From assembly GCF_033096005.1 (NCBI RefSeq), contig NZ_AP026803.1, forward strand, positions 223,501-287,500: a stretch of DNA of 64,000 bases. Reading direction: 5' to 3'. Positions 8,210 through 24,470 of this stretch are shown one piece after another. How positions within the stretch are numbered: the stretch's first letter is position 1; every line of letters begins with the position of its first letter. The DNA comes from Lactobacillus xylocopicola (GTDB lineage: Bacteria; Bacillota; Bacilli; Lactobacillales; Lactobacillaceae). The notes under the pieces are model-generated. The model was given only the letters and a program-made list of their open reading frames with translations, searched no databases and was not told where the DNA came from. The position numbers and the translations under genes were made by a program.

Positions 8210-8227
8210 TGATTTAATTGAATACGG

Positions 8228-8356
8228 TTTCTTCGGGGCAGGGTGCAATTCCCTACCGACGGTGACAACGAGTGCGTTGAAGTCCGTGACCCGCGTTAAG
8301 CGGTGGAACTAGTGCAAGTCTAGTACCGACAGTTAAAGTCTGGATGGGAGAAGAAC
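8228..8356 (+). promoter_or_regulatory. FMN riboswitch (RFN element)
   Basis: The conserved RFN blocks are all present in order: TTCGGGGCAGGGTG-like 5' block, CCCTACCGACGGTGA, AGTCCGTGACCCGC, GTGGAACTAGTGCAAGTC, TACCGACAGTTAAAGTCTGGATGGGAGAAGAA. The closing helix pairs TTCTTC with GAAGAA. It precedes a terminator at 8428-8456, so FMN binding is expected to cause early transcription termination before ribD. This is one of the best-supported RNA elements in the window. Confidence 0.97.
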
Positions 8357-8427
8357 AAATAACAACTAATATTTGACTCGCGCTAGAGCAGACTGAGCTG
8401 AAATCATATTTAGTTAATAAAAAAGCG

Positions 8428-16467: not shown

Positions 16468-16509
16468 AACAGTCATTTGAGATAGTTAAGTTGAAGAATG
16501 ACTGTTTTT
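16468..16509 (+). terminator. Terminator between mtlD and mtlR
   Basis: Perfect ten-base stem AACAGTCATT / AATGACTGTT with a 19-base loop and five T. It separates the enzyme operon from the regulator gene. Confidence 0.75.
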
Positions 16510-16558
16510 GCTGATGCCAACTGATTACTTGATGATAATACCAGCAGGGGTGGTGAAA

Positions 16559-18610
16559 ATGGTTGTATTTACTGAACGACAAAGAAAAATTTTACTAAAG
16601 TTGATTGAAAATAAGAAAGGACTTTCTCTAGCTGATTTAGAACAACAGTTGGCTGTCAGTCAGCGTACTTTGTATCGTGAATTTGCTGATTTAAGGTTAT
16701 ATCTAGAGCAACAGGGCGTAATTTTAATTAATCGAAAAGGTCTTTACCAAATTGAGGGTAGTCAAGGCGCATTAACACAAGTTAAAAAAAGTTTGATTAA
16801 TCAAAAGAAAATGTATTATTTTTCTACTGCATCAAGACAAGATGCAATTGTTGCGATGCTGTTATTAAGCTGTACGGAAATGAAAATCAATGATTTGGCT
16901 TTGAATTTAGAGGTTAGCCAAGTCACAGTTCAACGAGATCTAGACGATGTTGCCGAGTCTCTAGAGGCCTATGGCTTGCATTTGCTGCGAAAAAAAGGGA
17001 TTGGGATTATTGTTAGTGGACCTGAAAATATTCGGCGGTATCTTTTCTGCCGCGTAGTGTTAAATGAAATAAATGAATATCAATTTTTATTGAGTCTACA
17101 AAATAAAAAGAAAGCCATGAGTAATTTCTTGGCCCTGCTGATTCCCACTGATTTGCTAGTCAAGAGCTACGAAGCCCTGACTGTTAATGTATTACCTGAA
17201 ATAAAAGGAATATACGACCAAAGAACCATATCACTCGTTTTAATGTTTGCTCTAACAATCTACCGGTTTTCCCAAGGCTGCAATTTGAGCAAGATAACTA
17301 ATGAAAGTGTTGATATTAAGTATTTGGGGCTGACGTACAAATACTTGGCAAATTTGAACTATCAGAATATTGGGGAAAAATTGCCCAAAGAGGAAGTGAA
17401 ATTTTTAGCGGTTCAGTTACAGAACAGCGACCATCAGGTTATCCCAAAGAACTTTGATGACATTGATCTATCAACTTCTATTCAGATAAAAGAATTTATC
17501 TCTTTAGTATCTACGGCATATGGCTGGGACTTTACCCGTAATCCGACTTTTTTTGAAAAATCAGCTTATCATATAGAGAGCTTGTTAAAAAAGAACCAAT
17601 TACTATTACCTGAAGCAAATTTAGCTTCAATCAAAATTTTAGAGCAAAAGTATCAAAAACTAGCAAATATTATTGCTGAAAAGTGGCAAGAAGTATTCAC
17701 ACAAAAATATCTTAGCGAATATGAGAAGCAGTTGTTGTTGCTGTACTTTGCCAATGAGTGCGAAAACCATAAATATTATCATGGGTTGAGTGCATTGGTG
17801 ATTTGTGAAAATGGATTTTCAACCTCGCAAATTTTAAAAAGTCGTTTGCAACAAGAAGTGCCGGAAATTAGTCAGATTGATACAACTAAAATTGCCAAAT
17901 TAAAGCAACTTGATTTGGCTAATTACGATTTAGTTTTGACAACGGTCGATTTACCGGGCTTCCCGCGTGACTATCAAGTTGTGAGTCCGCTGCTTTTAAA
18001 TAATGAAGTCAAAAAAATCAAAAAATATCTGAAGACTTACCAATTTAAATACGCTAATTTGAAAAAAAAGAAACCCAAACAACCAGCATTGCCGCGCTTG
18101 CTAGCACATAAAAAAGAAGTTGACCTATATGCTCGGATAGCTGCGCAAATAGTCGTTTTTAAATTTGAAAACACAAGTGGACAGTTACTAAAGCACATAA
18201 TTAATGGTATTGTTAAGCAACTTCCGGAAGAAGTGATTGCTGATGCTGAATCAGTTGCTCAAAAACTGCTCTATCGAATTAACTTATCACCAGTAGGTTT
18301 GCCTCATACCCATTTAGCGTTAGTGCATACTAGCAGTGCAAGTGTCCATCAAGCAGATGTTACAGTTTGTGAGTTGCAAATTCCAGTTAAAATGCTTGCA
18401 ATGGATCGTAAAGAAATAGAAGTGAAAAGATTTTTGATTATGCTCGCTCCTGAAAAAGATGCATCTAGTGAAACTCAGGCATTAGGAATGATTAGCAGTA
18501 TGCTAGTAATGAATAATGAAAGTATGGCTATGTTTGAAAATGGAACTACGAAGCAATTACAGGAGTTCTTAGCAGATAAATTCTTGGCAGTTTTGGAACA
18601 TCAGGCATAA
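16559..18610 (+). CDS. mtlR: Mannitol operon activator MtlR (PRD/PTS-type regulator)
   Basis: DNA-binding transcription activator regulated by PTS phosphorylation. Order of domains: two N-terminal winged helices (about residues 1-70 and 95-150), two PRD domains (about 180-395), an EIIB-like domain with cysteine in ALVICENGFSTSQI, and a C-terminal EIIA-like domain with histidine in GLPHTHLALV. This is the full MtlR architecture. An in-frame ATG at 16508 lies in the preceding terminator, so I take ATG 16559, about five bases after AGGGGTGG; this gives 683 residues. Mannitol PTS and HPr are expected to set its phosphorylation state. Confidence 0.93.
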   Translation: MVVFTERQRKILLKLIENKKGLSLADLEQQLAVSQRTLYREFADLRLYLEQQGVILINRKGLYQIEGSQGALTQVKKSLINQKKMYYFSTASRQDAIVAMLLLSCTEMKINDLALNLEVSQVTVQRDLDDVAESLEAYGLHLLRKKGIGIIVSGPENIRRYLFCRVVLNEINEYQFLLSLQNKKKAMSNFLALLIPTDLLVKSYEALTVNVLPEIKGIYDQRTISLVLMFALTIYRFSQGCNLSKITNESVDIKYLGLTYKYLANLNYQNIGEKLPKEEVKFLAVQLQNSDHQVIPKNFDDIDLSTSIQIKEFISLVSTAYGWDFTRNPTFFEKSAYHIESLLKKNQLLLPEANLASIKILEQKYQKLANIIAEKWQEVFTQKYLSEYEKQLLLLYFANECENHKYYHGLSALVICENGFSTSQILKSRLQQEVPEISQIDTTKIAKLKQLDLANYDLVLTTVDLPGFPRDYQVVSPLLLNNEVKKIKKYLKTYQFKYANLKKKKPKQPALPRLLAHKKEVDLYARIAAQIVVFKFENTSGQLLKHIINGIVKQLPEEVIADAESVAQKLLYRINLSPVGLPHTHLALVHTSSASVHQADVTVCELQIPVKMLAMDRKEIEVKRFLIMLAPEKDASSETQALGMISSMLVMNNESMAMFENGTTKQLQEFLADKFLAVLEHQA

Positions 18611-20384: not shown

Positions 20385-21353
20385 TTATTTAGGTGCCTTA
20401 ATTGATTTAGGATCAATCCCTAAAGCTTTAGCCATCTCTTTATTAACAACCAACTTTAAATTTTCGGCCTTTTCAACGGGCATGTCCTGTGGCTTGGCCT
20501 TACCATCTAAGATTTTGGCAGCCATCTTACCTGTTTGTTTACCGAGCAGTTCGTAATCGATTCCGATAGTGGCTAAGCCCCCGGTCTTAACCTGGTCAAC
20601 AGAGCCTGCAACAAGGGGAACTTTCTTTTCTTTAACTACTTTGCCGATGATCGCGGCGGCTGAGGCAAAAGTGTTGTCAGTTGGCACGTAAATTCCTTGC
20701 ACTTTACCAGCCAAGGCTTCGGTTACTTGCTGCACATCGTTAGTTGTGTTAGCAGTCTTAACAACTATCTTAACACCAGCCTTCTTGAGGGCAGCAATGG
20801 CCATGTCAGCCTGAATCTTTGAATTGGCCTCACCGGCATTATACATTACCCCGATGGTCTTGGCCTTAGGTACAATTGACAAGAGTAAGTTGATTTGCTT
20901 GTCAATTGACACCATGTCGGTCGTACCCGTAACATTTCTGCCTGGTTTAGCGTCCGACTTGACTAACTTAGCCGCCTTGAGATCAGTCACCGCTGTGACT
21001 ACAAGCGGAATGTCTTGGGTGGTGTTAGCCAGACTTTGGGCGGCCGGAGTGGCAATTCCCAGAATTAAATCTGACTTCTCGTTGACCAGTTTTTCACTCA
21101 TACTCTTCAGATTATCTTGGCTATTTTGCGCATTTTGGTAATCTAGCTTAAGGTTTTTGCCTTCAGTGTAGCCCCCCTCTTTCAGCCCCTCTTTAAAGCC
21201 CTTATATGCCTTGTCTAGGGATGGGTGTTGCACGACTTGTAAGATGCCGACGTGCTTAACGGCTGATTTAGAGCCGCCTTGCTTGCTGCTACAACCGCCA
21301 AGCAATAGTAATCCTGTCATTGTGATTCCAGTGACCAATTTTCTAATATGCAT
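20385..21353 (-). CDS. ABC transporter substrate-binding lipoprotein, COG2984/TrpX family (paralogue 2)
   Basis: Extracellular solute receptor anchored as a lipoprotein: signal peptide with lipobox LLLGGC, lipidated Cys at residue 21. Family blocks include HVGILQVVQHPSLDKAYKGF, VTDLKAAKLVKSD, GTTDMVSIDKQINLLLSIVP and GIDYELLGKQTGKMAAKIL. Nearly the same sequence as the upstream paralogue; differences are spread out, with no truncation. It has its own promoter (21651-21679) and a Phe/Tyr leader peptide attenuator. Aromatic amino acids are the likely ligands, from the leader codons and the TrpX homology. Confidence 0.92.
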   Translation of the reverse strand: MHIRKLVTGITMTGLLLLGGCSSKQGGSKSAVKHVGILQVVQHPSLDKAYKGFKEGLKEGGYTEGKNLKLDYQNAQNSQDNLKSMSEKLVNEKSDLILGIATPAAQSLANTTQDIPLVVTAVTDLKAAKLVKSDAKPGRNVTGTTDMVSIDKQINLLLSIVPKAKTIGVMYNAGEANSKIQADMAIAALKKAGVKIVVKTANTTNDVQQVTEALAGKVQGIYVPTDNTFASAAAIIGKVVKEKKVPLVAGSVDQVKTGGLATIGIDYELLGKQTGKMAAKILDGKAKPQDMPVEKAENLKLVVNKEMAKALGIDPKSIKAPK

Positions 21354-21383
21354 TTTTCTTCCTCCATTATCCAGAAACAGCTA

Positions 21384-21644
21384 AAAATAAAAGTACCCAC
21401 TTACTTCATAAGTGGGTACTACAGAATTATCTCGAATTAAGAAATCGTTTGCGGTTAACCACTTAGAAAGCTATGGGGCTAACCGCATTTAAAGGGCATT
21501 AGCCATCATAGATAAATTCAAACTTGCGTTTCGTTTGAATTCACCTAGATGAACCCAAACGCTATCTAAAATAGCTAAAGTAAAAACGGTTATTCAGTTG
21601 TAAGTTTTGTTTTAAATTCATCAGAATTTACCTCCAACCTCAAT
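21384..21644 (-). promoter_or_regulatory. Leader RNA 2: predicted leader-peptide attenuator (Phe/Tyr)
   Basis: Read on the minus strand. After the leader peptide come segment A (TAGATA, 21568-21563), an inner hairpin CGTTTGGGTTCA/TGAATTCAAACG, segment B (TATCTATGATGGCTAA, beginning 21514), hairpin C (21486-21451, about ten base pairs) and a 12-bp terminator (AGTACCCACTTA / TAAGTGGGTACT, 21420-21392) with TTTATTTTT. A pairs with B; B can instead pair with the 5' arm of C (CTATG and GGCTAA); TAAGTGG at the loop and 3' arm of C can pair with CCACTTA of the terminator. These exclude each other as in classical attenuation. No T-box core is present. Confidence 0.7.
21562..21621 (-). CDS. Leader peptide 2 (19 residues, Phe/Tyr-rich)
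   Basis: Short frame with GGAGG (21635-21631) nine bases before ATG. It ends NNRFYFSYFR then TAG. Five of the last eight residues are Phe or Tyr (codons TTT TAC TTT AGC TAT TTT). The stop codon lies inside segment A of the attenuator. Its product is probably not functional as a protein; translation speed is the signal. Confidence 0.65.
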   Translation of the reverse strand: MNLKQNLQLNNRFYFSYFR

Positions 21645-21650
21645 GAAAAA

Positions 21651-21679
21651 ATTATAAAATAATAAAAATTGAAAGTCAA
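21651..21679 (-). promoter_or_regulatory. Promoter of leader 2
   Basis: On the minus strand, TTGACT (21679-21674), a 17-base spacer and TATAAT (21656-21651). A near-consensus sigma-A promoter about 15 bases before the leader peptide's ribosome site. Confidence 0.8.
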
Positions 21680-21748
21680 GGAAAAATTCACTAACTTACT
21701 CAATTGGATAAAGGAGATGCAAGTAAATTTACGAGCGAGTAAATTAGC

Positions 21749-22720
21749 TTATTGGGGCGCCTTGATTGATTTGGGGTTGATACCCAGAGCTTGGGCCATC
21801 TCCTTGTTGACCACTAACTTCATGTCACGGGCCTTTTCAACGGGTAGATCTTGCGGCTTGGCTTTACCAGCTAAAATCTTGGCCGCCATTTTACCGGTTT
21901 GCTTACCGAGGAGTTCGTAATCAATCCCAATTGAAGCTAGACCACCGGTTTTAACTTGGTCAATTGAGGCGGCAACGAGCGGGACCTTCTTTTCTTTGAC
22001 TACTTTACCGACAACTGAAGCGGCGGAGTCAAAGGTGTTGTCAGTCGGAACAAAGATTCCTTGAACCTTGCTGGCTAAAGTTTCAGTCACTTGTTGTACG
22101 TCATTAGTTGTGTTGGCAGTCTTGACAACCACCTTGACGCCGGCTTTCTTTAACACGGCAATAGCCATATCTGCTTGAATTTTAGAATTGGACTCACCAG
22201 CATTGTACATGATACCAATGGTCTTGGCCTTGGGCACAATCGATAAAAGCAGGTCAATTTGCTTTTTAATTGAAACCATGTCAGTTGTGCCAGTGACATT
22301 GGTTCCAGGTTTAGTATTCGACTTAACTAACTTGGCTGCTTTAAGGTCAGTTACGGCGGTAACCACGACGGGAATGTCTTGGGTTGCGTTGGCTACGCTC
22401 TGAGCCGCCGGTGTGGCAATGCCCAAGATCAAGTCGGACTTTGCATTAACCAACTTTTCACTCATGCTCTTTAGATTGTCCTGATTATTTTGCGCATTTT
22501 GGTAGTCAATTTTAAGGTTTTTGCCTTCGGTATAGCCACCTTCTTTTAAGCCTTCCTTAAAGCCCTTGTAGGCCTTATCTAGGGACGGGTGCTGGACCAC
22601 TTGTAAAACCCCGACGTGTTTGACCACTGTCTTGTCTGAGCCAGCCTCTTTGCTGGAACAGCCGCCTAAGAGCAAGAGCCCCGCCAAGGTAATTCCGGTA
22701 ACTAATTTTTTGATCTGCAT
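21749..22720 (-). CDS. ABC transporter substrate-binding lipoprotein, COG2984/TrpX family (paralogue 1)
   Basis: Second copy of the solute receptor, encoded upstream of paralogue 2. Lipobox LLLGGC with Cys at residue 21. I start at the ATG of MQIKKLVTG (22720) because GGAGG lies seven bases before it; upstream ATGs at 22726 and beyond sit on top of the ribosome site or inside the terminator. It gives 323 residues, one more than paralogue 2, and most residues are shared. No permease or ATPase follows directly: a full promoter and leader of paralogue 2 intervene, so its level can be set independently. Its leader peptide is Tyr-rich. Confidence 0.92.
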   Translation of the reverse strand: MQIKKLVTGITLAGLLLLGGCSSKEAGSDKTVVKHVGVLQVVQHPSLDKAYKGFKEGLKEGGYTEGKNLKIDYQNAQNNQDNLKSMSEKLVNAKSDLILGIATPAAQSVANATQDIPVVVTAVTDLKAAKLVKSNTKPGTNVTGTTDMVSIKKQIDLLLSIVPKAKTIGIMYNAGESNSKIQADMAIAVLKKAGVKVVVKTANTTNDVQQVTETLASKVQGIFVPTDNTFDSAASVVGKVVKEKKVPLVAASIDQVKTGGLASIGIDYELLGKQTGKMAAKILAGKAKPQDLPVEKARDMKLVVNKEMAQALGINPKSIKAPQ

Positions 22721-22734
22721 TTTCATGCCTCCAT

Positions 22735-22994
22735 AAAAAAATACCCACTTACTCCTAAGTGGGTACAACAAGAATTATCCTGAGGTAATTAATCATGAAG
22801 CGATTAGCCACTTAGAAAGCTATGTGGCTAATCGCACTAAAAAGGGTCTAGCCATCATAGATAAATTCAAACGCGTATGGTTTGAATCCACCTAAGATGA
22901 ATCCAAACCTTATCTATAGTAGCTAAGATAATAACAATTATTAAGTTGTAGATTATGTTTCAAATTCTTCATGAGAATTACCTCCAGCCTTAAT
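22735..22994 (-). promoter_or_regulatory. Leader RNA 1: predicted leader-peptide attenuator (Tyr)
   Basis: Same layout as leader 2, with sequence changes that keep pairing. Segment A ATAGATAA (22917-22910) matches TTATCTAT of segment B (22864-22857) over eight bases; the inner hairpin is GGTTTGGATTCA/TGGATTCAAACC; B (CTATGATGGCTA) can pair with the 5' arm of hairpin C (TAGCCACATAG) over 11 pairs with one bulge; C itself is a perfect 12-bp stem (22835-22800); CTAAGTGG in C (22815-22808) matches CCACTTAG of the terminator; the terminator stem is TACCCACTTA / TAAGTGGGTA (22765-22742) followed by seven T. The ribosome site of the lipoprotein follows directly. Confidence 0.72.
22910..22972 (-). 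CDS. Leader peptide 1 (20 residues, Tyr-rich)
   Basis: ATG at 22972 follows GGAGG (22985-22981) by eight bases. The peptide ends NNCYYLSYYR then TAA; four Tyr codons fall in the last seven sense codons (TAT TAT CTT AGC TAC TAT AGA). The last two sense codons and the stop form segment A of the attenuator. The body NLK.NLQLNN is shared with leader peptide 2. Confidence 0.68.
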   Translation of the reverse strand: MKNLKHNLQLNNCYYLSYYR

Positions 22995-23000
22995 GAGGAA

Positions 23001-23029
23001 AGTATAAAAGATAAAATAGAAAACGTCAA
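23001..23029 (-). promoter_or_regulatory. Promoter of leader 1
   Basis: On the minus strand, TTGACG (23029-23024), a 17-base spacer and TATACT (23006-23001). Divergent from rpoN. Confidence 0.8.
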
Positions 23030-23210
23030 GGCTAAATTTAATTTTGTGATTAATTAGAGCGAGTGGGTCCGCGCAAAATCCGCCTGCCGGGACGCTTAAA
23101 TATACCTTGGACGTGTAGAAAAAAGTGGCAAGGGTTAGAAAGCGCTCTATTAATCGGCTATAATTAAAGAACAACATAAATTGTCTTGGGAAAAGAAAGG
23201 AGAAAAGTCG

Positions 23211-24470
23211 ATGGCACAATTGCAAAGATTGGTACTGAAACCACAAGAGCAGTTAGTGACACGGCTTTTTCTGTCGCCTAAGCTGAAGCAGAATCTAACA
23301 GTCCTGTCTTACAGTACTTATGATTTGGTCAACGCGCTGAAAGACTTGAGCGAGCGTGATCCCTTTGTTTCGCTACGTGAGCCGAGGGCAGAAATGCAAA
23401 ACTTGGAGTGGTTGCGGGCGCCAGCAGGTGAAAACTTAGTTGACCATTTGTTGGGACAAGTACGGTTAAGCGACTGGACCAGCAGGGAGCAGAGAGCAGT
23501 TAAATTGCTTATTTTCAGCTTAGACTCAGACGGCTACCTCCGCGCTGATTTAGCTAACATAGCCACTCAAACGGAATTTTCATTGGTAGACTTAAACCAT
23601 GCTCGCACGCTGCTGCAAGAACTCGATCCCTGCGGGATTGGTACTACAAATCTAAATGAGTGTCTGTTACTTCAAGCTAGGCAAAAAACGAATTTCGATC
23701 AGGTTGCCAGGCAGATTTTAGAGGCAGGCCAGTTGGAATTATTGGCTAGCCCGCAGCAGTGGCCCAAGTCAAAATTCACAGAGGCAGAATTGACCCAGGC
23801 GCTAGCTTGCATTCAGACCCTTGATCCACACCCCGCAAGTGAGTATGTTGTCGACAATAACACGCAGTATCTTTTACCAGATTTAAGCTACAAGGTTGAA
23901 GACGGGCGGCTGACGGTTGAAAGCTGCCAGTCGCAGATTCCAGAGCTGATTTTTGATGAACCAGCGTATGCAGAATTAAAGGATCAGGCACCGCAAAAGA
24001 AGTACTTTACTGAGCAGAAACAAGACTATCTGGAAATGAAGAATGCGCTTGACCAGCGTCAAAAGACGATTATGCGATTAGGTCACTTTGTTGGTGAAGT
24101 CCAACAGCCATTCTTAATGTCTCTAAAAAAGCAAGAGCTGAAGCCACTAGGCCTAAAGGAGGCGTCCCAGGCTCTGAACCTGGCACCTAGCACGATTAGT
24201 CGGGCGATTAAGGACAAGTACATCCAGTGTCAAAACAAGCTTTTTAGTCTAAAAATACTCTTTCCCCGTCAGGTGACGACGGATTTGTCCCCAGCGCGGA
24301 TTGAGTACGACCTGCAAAAAATAATTGCAGCAGAAGACCAGCCGTTAAGTGACCAGCAATTAGTCGGAATTTTTGCTGAAGCTGGGGTCAAATTGAGCAG
24401 ACGGGTAATTACCAAGTACCGGCAAAAGTTAAACATTCCCAACAGTTATGGGCGCAAGCACAAGTATTGA
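23211..24470 (+). CDS. rpoN: RNA polymerase sigma-54 factor RpoN
   Basis: Alternative sigma factor that needs an AAA+ activator. The N-terminal region I is Gln/Leu rich (QRLVLKPQEQLVTRLFLSPKLKQNLTVLS), the core-binding domain spans about 90-220, a helix-turn-helix is near APSTISRAI, and the RpoN box region reads LSRRVITKYRQKLNIP, close to the ARRTVAKYR consensus. The ATG at 23211 has GGAGAA ten bases ahead; the frame extends further up without need. It has 419 residues. In lactobacilli sigma-54 typically drives mannose-class PTS operons with LevR/ManR; no such activator or PTS lies in this window. A TATAAT box at 23159-23164 could be its promoter. Confidence 0.92.
   Translation: MAQLQRLVLKPQEQLVTRLFLSPKLKQNLTVLSYSTYDLVNALKDLSERDPFVSLREPRAEMQNLEWLRAPAGENLVDHLLGQVRLSDWTSREQRAVKLLIFSLDSDGYLRADLANIATQTEFSLVDLNHARTLLQELDPCGIGTTNLNECLLLQARQKTNFDQVARQILEAGQLELLASPQQWPKSKFTEAELTQALACIQTLDPHPASEYVVDNNTQYLLPDLSYKVEDGRLTVESCQSQIPELIFDEPAYAELKDQAPQKKYFTEQKQDYLEMKNALDQRQKTIMRLGHFVGEVQQPFLMSLKKQELKPLGLKEASQALNLAPSTISRAIKDKYIQCQNKLFSLKILFPRQVTTDLSPARIEYDLQKIIAAEDQPLSDQQLVGIFAEAGVKLSRRVITKYRQKLNIPNSYGRKHKY

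Follow-up and report, generated by a model that had tools for sequence, protein, structure and literature searches.

The his, trp and phe attenuators of enteric bacteria combine a leader peptide carrying regulatory codons with alternate RNA segments and a terminator. For aromatic amino acid regulation in low-GC Gram-positive bacteria, Panina (2003) reportedly proposes signals for the aro genes of streptococci and lactococci. In Firmicutes, leader-peptide attenuation with other amino acids and other genes has been described for the leucine-rich attenuator peptide of Staphylococcus aureus ilv (PMC5794164) and, in bacilli, for His leader peptides located before hisS paralogues (PMC2965389). By its description, the element analyzed here is also comparable to uORFC-13-1 of Acholeplasma, a uORF with Phe codon(s) that precedes aroF together with a terminator, and of which 24 sequences are given, from Acholeplasma and environmental sources only (PMC8632094).

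Two Rfam families also bear on this locus. RF02863 corresponds to sRNA_2410, a 195-nt putative sRNA of Enterococcus faecium that was detected by RNA-seq and Northern blot, gives two transcripts and is up 2.3/4.1-fold with daptomycin (PMC5593968). RF04312, the trpB motif, is presented by its authors as a strong riboswitch candidate, in a description that does not rule out an attenuator (PMC11109978). Here we analyze a 64,000-nucleotide stretch of Lactobacillus xylocopicola DNA, hereafter the window, to which all coordinates refer. We conclude, with a probability of roughly 0.88, that it carries two serial ribosome-mediated transcription attenuators, with charged tRNA-Tyr/Phe as the signal, which govern an ABC importer for aromatic amino acids.

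Results

Two candidate attenuators within one importer operon

The first element lies on the minus strand and comprises a leader ORF with its Shine-Dalgarno sequence, a hairpin P1, an arm B, a hairpin C and a terminator that extends to 22741; a lipoprotein gene follows. As an earlier, sequence-only reading of this locus had described, a GGAGG (22985-22981) precedes a 20-codon frame ending CYYLSYYR, namely MKNLKHNLQLNNCYYLSYYR, which spans 22910-22972 with its ATG at 22972 and its stop codon at 22912-22910. The near-consensus promoter that it noted is present as TTGACG-17-TATACT (23001-23029, minus strand, 10/12 matches), although such matches are as a class no commoner than in shuffles (6 found, against a shuffle mean of 7.8). 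The start of a divergent sigma-54 (RpoN) gene (23181-24470, plus strand) lies close upstream of this site.

The codons for SYYR and stop, with the base that precedes them, form arm A (22910-22925), whose partner is arm B (22849-22864), as supported by the sequence, by shuffles and by helix 1 of the alignment described below. This pairing had been put at eight bases and is in fact longer, with sense codons engaged in base pairs over 15/16 positions (22925-22910 with 22864-22849). The Tyr codons, which were said to end at A, lie inside the arm and themselves pair with B. Hairpin P1 (22879-22909; alignment helix 2) is located directly 3' of the stop codon, and its 3' arm has an alternative partner in a repeat, R (22871-22858), which the 5' part of B overlaps. 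The remaining pairings are as first claimed: hairpin C (22800-22835) has 12 bp between C5' (22835-22824) and C3' (22811-22800); C5', extended to 22820, pairs with B over 11 bp with one bulge; and the terminator arm has its complement in the segment CTAAGTGG of hairpin C, with 22815-22808 as the pairing positions. The terminator itself (22741-22766) is followed by a T-run. Taken as a whole, the fold of the 260-nt leader is far stronger than those of shuffled sequences (z -8.5; 0/200).

A second complete copy of the element (21679-21392, minus strand), which the sequence-only reading had not noted, is found between the tandem lipoprotein genes, before the second one. It has a promoter-like site TTGACT-17-TATAAT (21651-21679; 11/12 matches, as a class not above chance), a leader ORF encoding MNLKQNLQLNNRFYFSYFR and ending RFYFSYFR before the stop codon (21562-21621), and an attenuator region (21392-21561) with its terminator at 21420-21392. 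The codons point to Tyr as the probable regulatory amino acid for the first copy, and to Phe plus Tyr for the second.

Both lipoproteins (21749-22720 and 20385-21353, minus strand) are substrate-binding proteins of family PF04392 with a pocket of the Phe/Tyr type, and the genes for a permease (PF02653, 19439-20356) and an ABC ATPase (PF00005, 18658-19521) come after the second of them on the same strand. A PTS-type (Mga/EIIA) regulator is found at 16508-18610, and the window also contains an FMN riboswitch (8225-8359, plus strand, 106.1 bits).

A T-box riboswitch has a precedent in S. suis, where trpX is under T-box control (PMC9382623). Yet the T-box model (RF00230) gave no hit in the window at the gathering threshold, nor in 21350-23050 at E values up to 10, and we give this explanation practically no weight. 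Apart from RF02863, no other Rfam family was convincingly matched in the window leaders.

The leader is conserved and resembles an RNA filed in Rfam as a small RNA

RF02863 matches the first copy at 22760-22926 (60.8 bits, E 5.5e-9) and the second at 21578-21372 (51.8 bits), both on the minus strand and just below or below the cut-off of 61, and relatives exceed it (206.4 bits in E. lactis, L047; 70.4 bits in L011). By these scores, the window element would belong to RF02863 or sit at its edge. It appears to be the same RNA, which Rfam files as an sRNA gene with a model that covers neither the terminator nor the greater part of the leader ORF.

That family type raises the alternative of a trans-acting small RNA, for which the leader ORF would be incidental, and the RNA-seq and Northern detection of sRNA_2410 and its daptomycin induction are in its favor (PMC5593968). 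Against it, the model in E. lactis L047 begins within the leader ORF and stops before the terminator, and the terminated transcript of an attenuator would itself resemble sRNA_2410, which makes a trans-acting role very unlikely.

We then considered 62 named loci (L001-L062) picked by protein alone, with the leader disregarded. The leader precedes 74/76 homologous genes, the two misses being the most distant, L060 and L061, and its carriers are Lactobacillus, Enterococcus, Tetragenococcus and Vagococcus. The sequence-only reading had staked its interpretation on conservation, and across genera the small frame is indeed kept, as are the pairings among A, B, C and the terminator; TATCTATGATGGC occurs with at most two changes in 79/81 distinct leaders. 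A covariance model search, as it had proposed, was made as well: by genome-wide model counts, RF02863 matches 215/395 Lactobacillales genomes at E ≤ 0.001 and 98/395 above its cut-off, and 0/14 control genomes. Matches were obtained in 35/398 genomes of a class sample, five of them outside the window's order, in 36/80 genomes of the order of one genome (G610), and in 3/299 genomes of a phylum sample, all within the window's own order. Within the genus, the leader DNA is matched in 26/75 genomes, or 24 once two weak matches without a leader (L087 in G044 and L088 in G040) are set aside as chance, so that about 50/75 genomes have no leader DNA match.

Two irregular copies were observed. Upstream of the second binding-protein gene in L. 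kimbladii (L006b), P1 is lost and A, B, C and the terminator are kept; in L. apis (L017/L074), a duplicated stretch containing N lies between the leader and the second gene and is probably an assembly join.

The alternative pairings are maintained by compensatory changes

Pairing strength was compared with 100 shuffles for each of 129 distinct elements, including the window's two, with T5' and T3' denoting the 5' and 3' arms of the terminator. The pairing energy of arm A with downstream RNA is -16.2 kcal/mol (shuffles, -8.1), and that of T5' with the C region is -13.1 kcal/mol (shuffles, -6.6); at most 5/100 shuffles equalled the real pairing in 129/129 and 114/129 elements, respectively.

The OFF structure, composed of A:B, P1 and C, was examined in an alignment of 59 diverse sequences. 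It has 92.4% of its cells paired and 19/38 pairs changed on both sides, compared with 34.8-43.8% and 4-10 such pairs when the structure is slid as a control. Helix 1 (A:B) accounts for 91.3% of cells paired with 7/18 pairs doubly changed, and helix 2 (P1) for 95.0% with 9/12. The competing B:C5' helix is 94.1% paired with 4/11 double changes, against 1-2 when slid, a value of 4 being reached by 16/500 shuffles. C3' and T5' also covary, as in CTAAGTGG/CCACTTAG, CTGAGTGG/CCACTCAG and CTATAGTGG/CCACTGTAG. For the helix between the 3' arm of P1 and R, the Phe/Tyr alignment gives weak support, with 86.2% of cells paired and 4/11 double changes, against 5 after a slide by -3. Arm B follows differences in the codons, as seen in L163 (TTTGATAC/GTATCAA) and in L218 and L219, where WQNWRR codons pair with B.

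A T-run follows hairpin C in 14/16 leaders of aro operons and in 0/109 importer leaders, so that C may itself be a terminator in the former; most aro leaders may thus have two terminators wired in series.

Masking arm A shifts calculated folding toward antitermination across the family

L006b, in which C5' was not located, was left out of the B:C5' and ON-fold calculations, the latter of which cover 128/129 elements. In these calculations, masking A, as a stalled ribosome would do in the sequence-only reading, shifts the family as a whole toward the ON (antitermination) fold, and does so in the window's two elements only with P1 imposed. Before C3' is made, masking A raised B:C5' pairing from 0.10 to 0.59 in importer leaders, with an increase in 93/109 and a decrease in one; in aro leaders the value rose from 0.36 to 0.83, with an increase in 13/16. 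Before T3' is made, pairing of T5' with upstream RNA reached 0.56 instead of 0.30 in 110 importer leaders (increase in 67, decrease in 6) and 0.75 instead of 0.52 in 16 aro leaders (increase in 10, decrease in none). The ON fold is at most 2 kcal/mol above the optimum in 87/128 elements with A masked against 16/128 with A free, and in 115/128 against 16/128 when P1 is imposed; with P1 imposed, the early gain in B:C5' is seen in 37/38 Lactobacillus elements and 82/90 others.

Imposing P1 was a choice made after equilibrium folding had failed for the window's own elements: without it, neither of the two switches at equilibrium and the helix between the P1 3' arm and R dominates, early B:C5' going from 0.03 to 0.03 in leader 1 and from 0.00 to 0.21 in leader 2 upon masking. 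With P1 imposed, masking A brings the ON fold of leader 1 from 11.6 to 1.6 kcal/mol above the optimum (from 13.6 to 10.1 without P1), and that of leader 2 from 10.4 to 2.7 (from 9.9 to 8.7 without P1). In this calculation the window's elements would therefore switch only if P1 forms first, an order that transcription would favor. Even with P1 imposed, early B:C5' in leader 1 is already 0.62 with A free, against 0.71 masked, and hairpin C wins in the late ensemble of both window leaders.

Leader codons match the pocket and the pathway of the downstream genes

In three solved binding proteins, the choice among Tyr, Phe and Trp is explained by two residues (PMC6816091). CD0873, which binds tyrosine (PMC6816091), is by sequence the nearest solved homologue of the window lipoproteins, which agrees with the aromatic importer first proposed. 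The first gene had been called TrpX-like. The window proteins score 331.8 and 330 against the TrpX (NF041285) cut-off of 390 and carry Tyr rather than Gln at the selectivity site.

From 110 importer elements, 93 proteins were recovered by our filter, and all 93 have Tyr at this site after Phe/Tyr leaders, where the Trp binder has Gln; after Trp leaders, the site is Gln in 27/27 proteins found. Leader codons thus appear to track the importer pocket type, with the limit that these proteins are related to each other and the counts are not independent events. Pocket site 263 is Ser in 87/93 and Ala in 6/93 proteins after Phe/Tyr leaders. It was discarded as a clean marker of Tyr binding because it is ambiguous in both window proteins, which have Ser, neither the Glu of the Tyr type nor the Ala of the Phe/Trp type; it is Asp in L213 (leader NNYYYSYY-stop) and Glu in L166 (QYYFSYFR-stop). 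At the adjacent site 262, Ser is found in 10/12 proteins with Tyr-only leaders, which are close relatives, against 0/81 others, and the protein of the window's first copy has Ala.

In two overlapping sets of 19 and 67 loci, the leaders precede ABC importers and aro operons (aroE, DAHP synthase, aroB, aroC), and they are also present before aroC-tyrA (L146) and pheA (L149, L153). Outside the order, the element precedes DAHP synthase, pheA, an NSS-type transporter, transketolase with DAHP synthase, an aminotransferase and an importer. These gene names were assigned by eye, except for ten representatives with a confirmed family: aroE, DAHP synthase and aroB (L127), aroC and tyrA (L146), pheA (L149), sodium:neurotransmitter symporter (L168), transketolase (L167), aminotransferase (L214) and trpB (L220). 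One genome (G451) has five copies, with the codons RYYFSYFR, RFFFSFFR, NYYFSYFR, LYFSYFR and QYYYSYFR.

Mixed codon sets were also observed. Leaders ending NIWYSYRR-stop or NIWYSYRM-stop, with Trp and Tyr codons, precede a sodium:neurotransmitter-type symporter (L168, L216, L217), which suggests that this may be a Trp/Tyr carrier. RYYYFGWFS-stop, with Tyr, Phe and Trp codons, precedes transketolase and DAHP synthase (L167), and FYYYFGFFR-stop, with Tyr and Phe codons, precedes the aminotransferase (L214).

A probable Trp branch and the trpB motif

Two loci found by the covariance model of the Phe/Tyr leaders (L218, E 5.8e-5; L219, E 8.1e-5) encode peptides ending WQNWRR-stop before TrpX. The corresponding Trp codon pattern, with at most two mismatches, occurs in 87/345 Lactobacillales genomes, against 12 for a control read backwards. 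We read 32 loci of this search (L218-L249), in 27 of which BLAST found a binding protein; L220 and L221 precede trpB, and L226, L232 and L236, which have no plausible leader or gene, were taken as chance. Some genomes (e.g., G076 and G230) carry the Trp element and an aro element on one strand, with the Trp element some 3 kb upstream.

Among 10 Trp-codon loci, the RF04312 trpB motif scored above its cut-off in 6, below it in 2 and gave no hit in 2; the window leaders reached 20.4 and 21.3 bits against a cut-off of 59. In the two loci shown, this model starts after the Trp ORF. We read P1 of the motif (SRC-39-1) as the alternative helix, formed by B with the arm after the stop codon, and its second hairpin as the terminator. 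Direct pairing of B with T5' was tried as a general Trp scheme and dropped, being clear in only 12/29.

An alternative put forward for this related motif is a riboswitch that senses the amino acid itself. It would also be a structured RNA with a terminator, and the published candidacy of the trpB motif is a point in its favor (PMC11109978). However, an in-frame aromatic ORF lies ahead of 74/76 genes chosen regardless of leader, and codon identity tracks the regulated gene; we rate direct sensing a little below even the trans-acting RNA. It is likely that RF02863 and RF04312 together make up a single superfamily of codon-programmable leader-peptide attenuators of Bacilli for aromatic import and synthesis, the former as its Phe/Tyr branch and the latter as its Trp branch, in which retargeting would proceed by codon swaps in arm A, with B re-pairing.

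Discussion

The sequence, its conservation, the compensatory pairings, the family-wide folding shift upon masking of A and the match between codons and pocket are what we observe here, and the conserved frame, the exclusive pairings and the Phe/Tyr pocket support the ribosome-mediated attenuation that was first proposed. The window has the components of an attenuator, that is, a conserved short ORF, predicted to be translated and rich in codons for the regulated amino acid, and alternative pairings that exclude one another and lead to an intrinsic terminator; in the window, the energy balance of these pairings depends on P1 forming first.

From this we infer that the leader is translated, that ribosomes stall on it, that charged tRNA is the signal, and in which direction the operon responds. 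When charged tRNA-Tyr (and, for the second copy, also tRNA-Phe) is plentiful, the ribosome would complete the leader peptide and depart. P1 would then form, arm A with its codons would pair with B, C would fold back on itself, and transcription would end at the terminator. With uncharged tRNA, the ribosome would stall on the aromatic codons and cover A; B would then take C5', and the freed C3' would hold the 5' arm of the terminator, allowing the operon to be transcribed. A shortage of Tyr would open both attenuators, and a shortage of Phe the second one alone, which would yield binding protein 2, the permease and the ATPase.

TnaC exemplifies a different principle, nascent-peptide arrest in response to a free amino acid. 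A QLNN...YFSYFR peptide could act in this manner here: the QLN(N) preceding the aromatic run (near 22948-22937, minus strand) is conserved in most Phe/Tyr leaders beyond what RNA pairing explains, it is kept in several Trp leaders (KQLNNSW in L219, NQLNSW in L239, QQLNSW in L240), and we know of no RNA partner for these codons. QLN is nevertheless absent from other leaders (QQNN in L017-L019, MNQN in L136-L138, L218, L238, L248), and arrest at a high amino acid level would turn the importer on at the wrong time. Such arrest is thus improbable as the basis of the regulation, and we favor stalling for lack of charged tRNA.

The proposed attenuators share the leader peptide, alternate segments and terminator with the his, trp and phe systems of enteric bacteria, and with his also the relay through an extra hairpin. 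The likeness drawn here is one of scheme. Unlike in those systems, the codons here lie within the first pairing arm, P1 follows the stop codon, and a single RNA backbone recurs with codons for Phe, Tyr or Trp. In the open-access literature searched, we found no description of the element as a Phe/Tyr attenuator.

The same switch, with Phe, Tyr or Trp codons suiting the gene behind it, is probably shared by many lactic acid bacteria and also by some of their relatives. If our reading is correct, it would give a function to an orphan Rfam "sRNA" of E. faecium and a testable answer for the trpB motif, a published riboswitch candidate with over 900 copies. The specificity of an importer would be predictable from its leader codons, and a few codons upstream of the gene could thus serve to annotate importers that are uncharacterized. 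Since a codon swap has to be matched by a change in the paired RNA arm, the family would constitute a natural record of regulator reprogramming. Ribosome-mediated attenuation would then be a common alternative to T-boxes for the aromatic amino acids in Lactobacillales.
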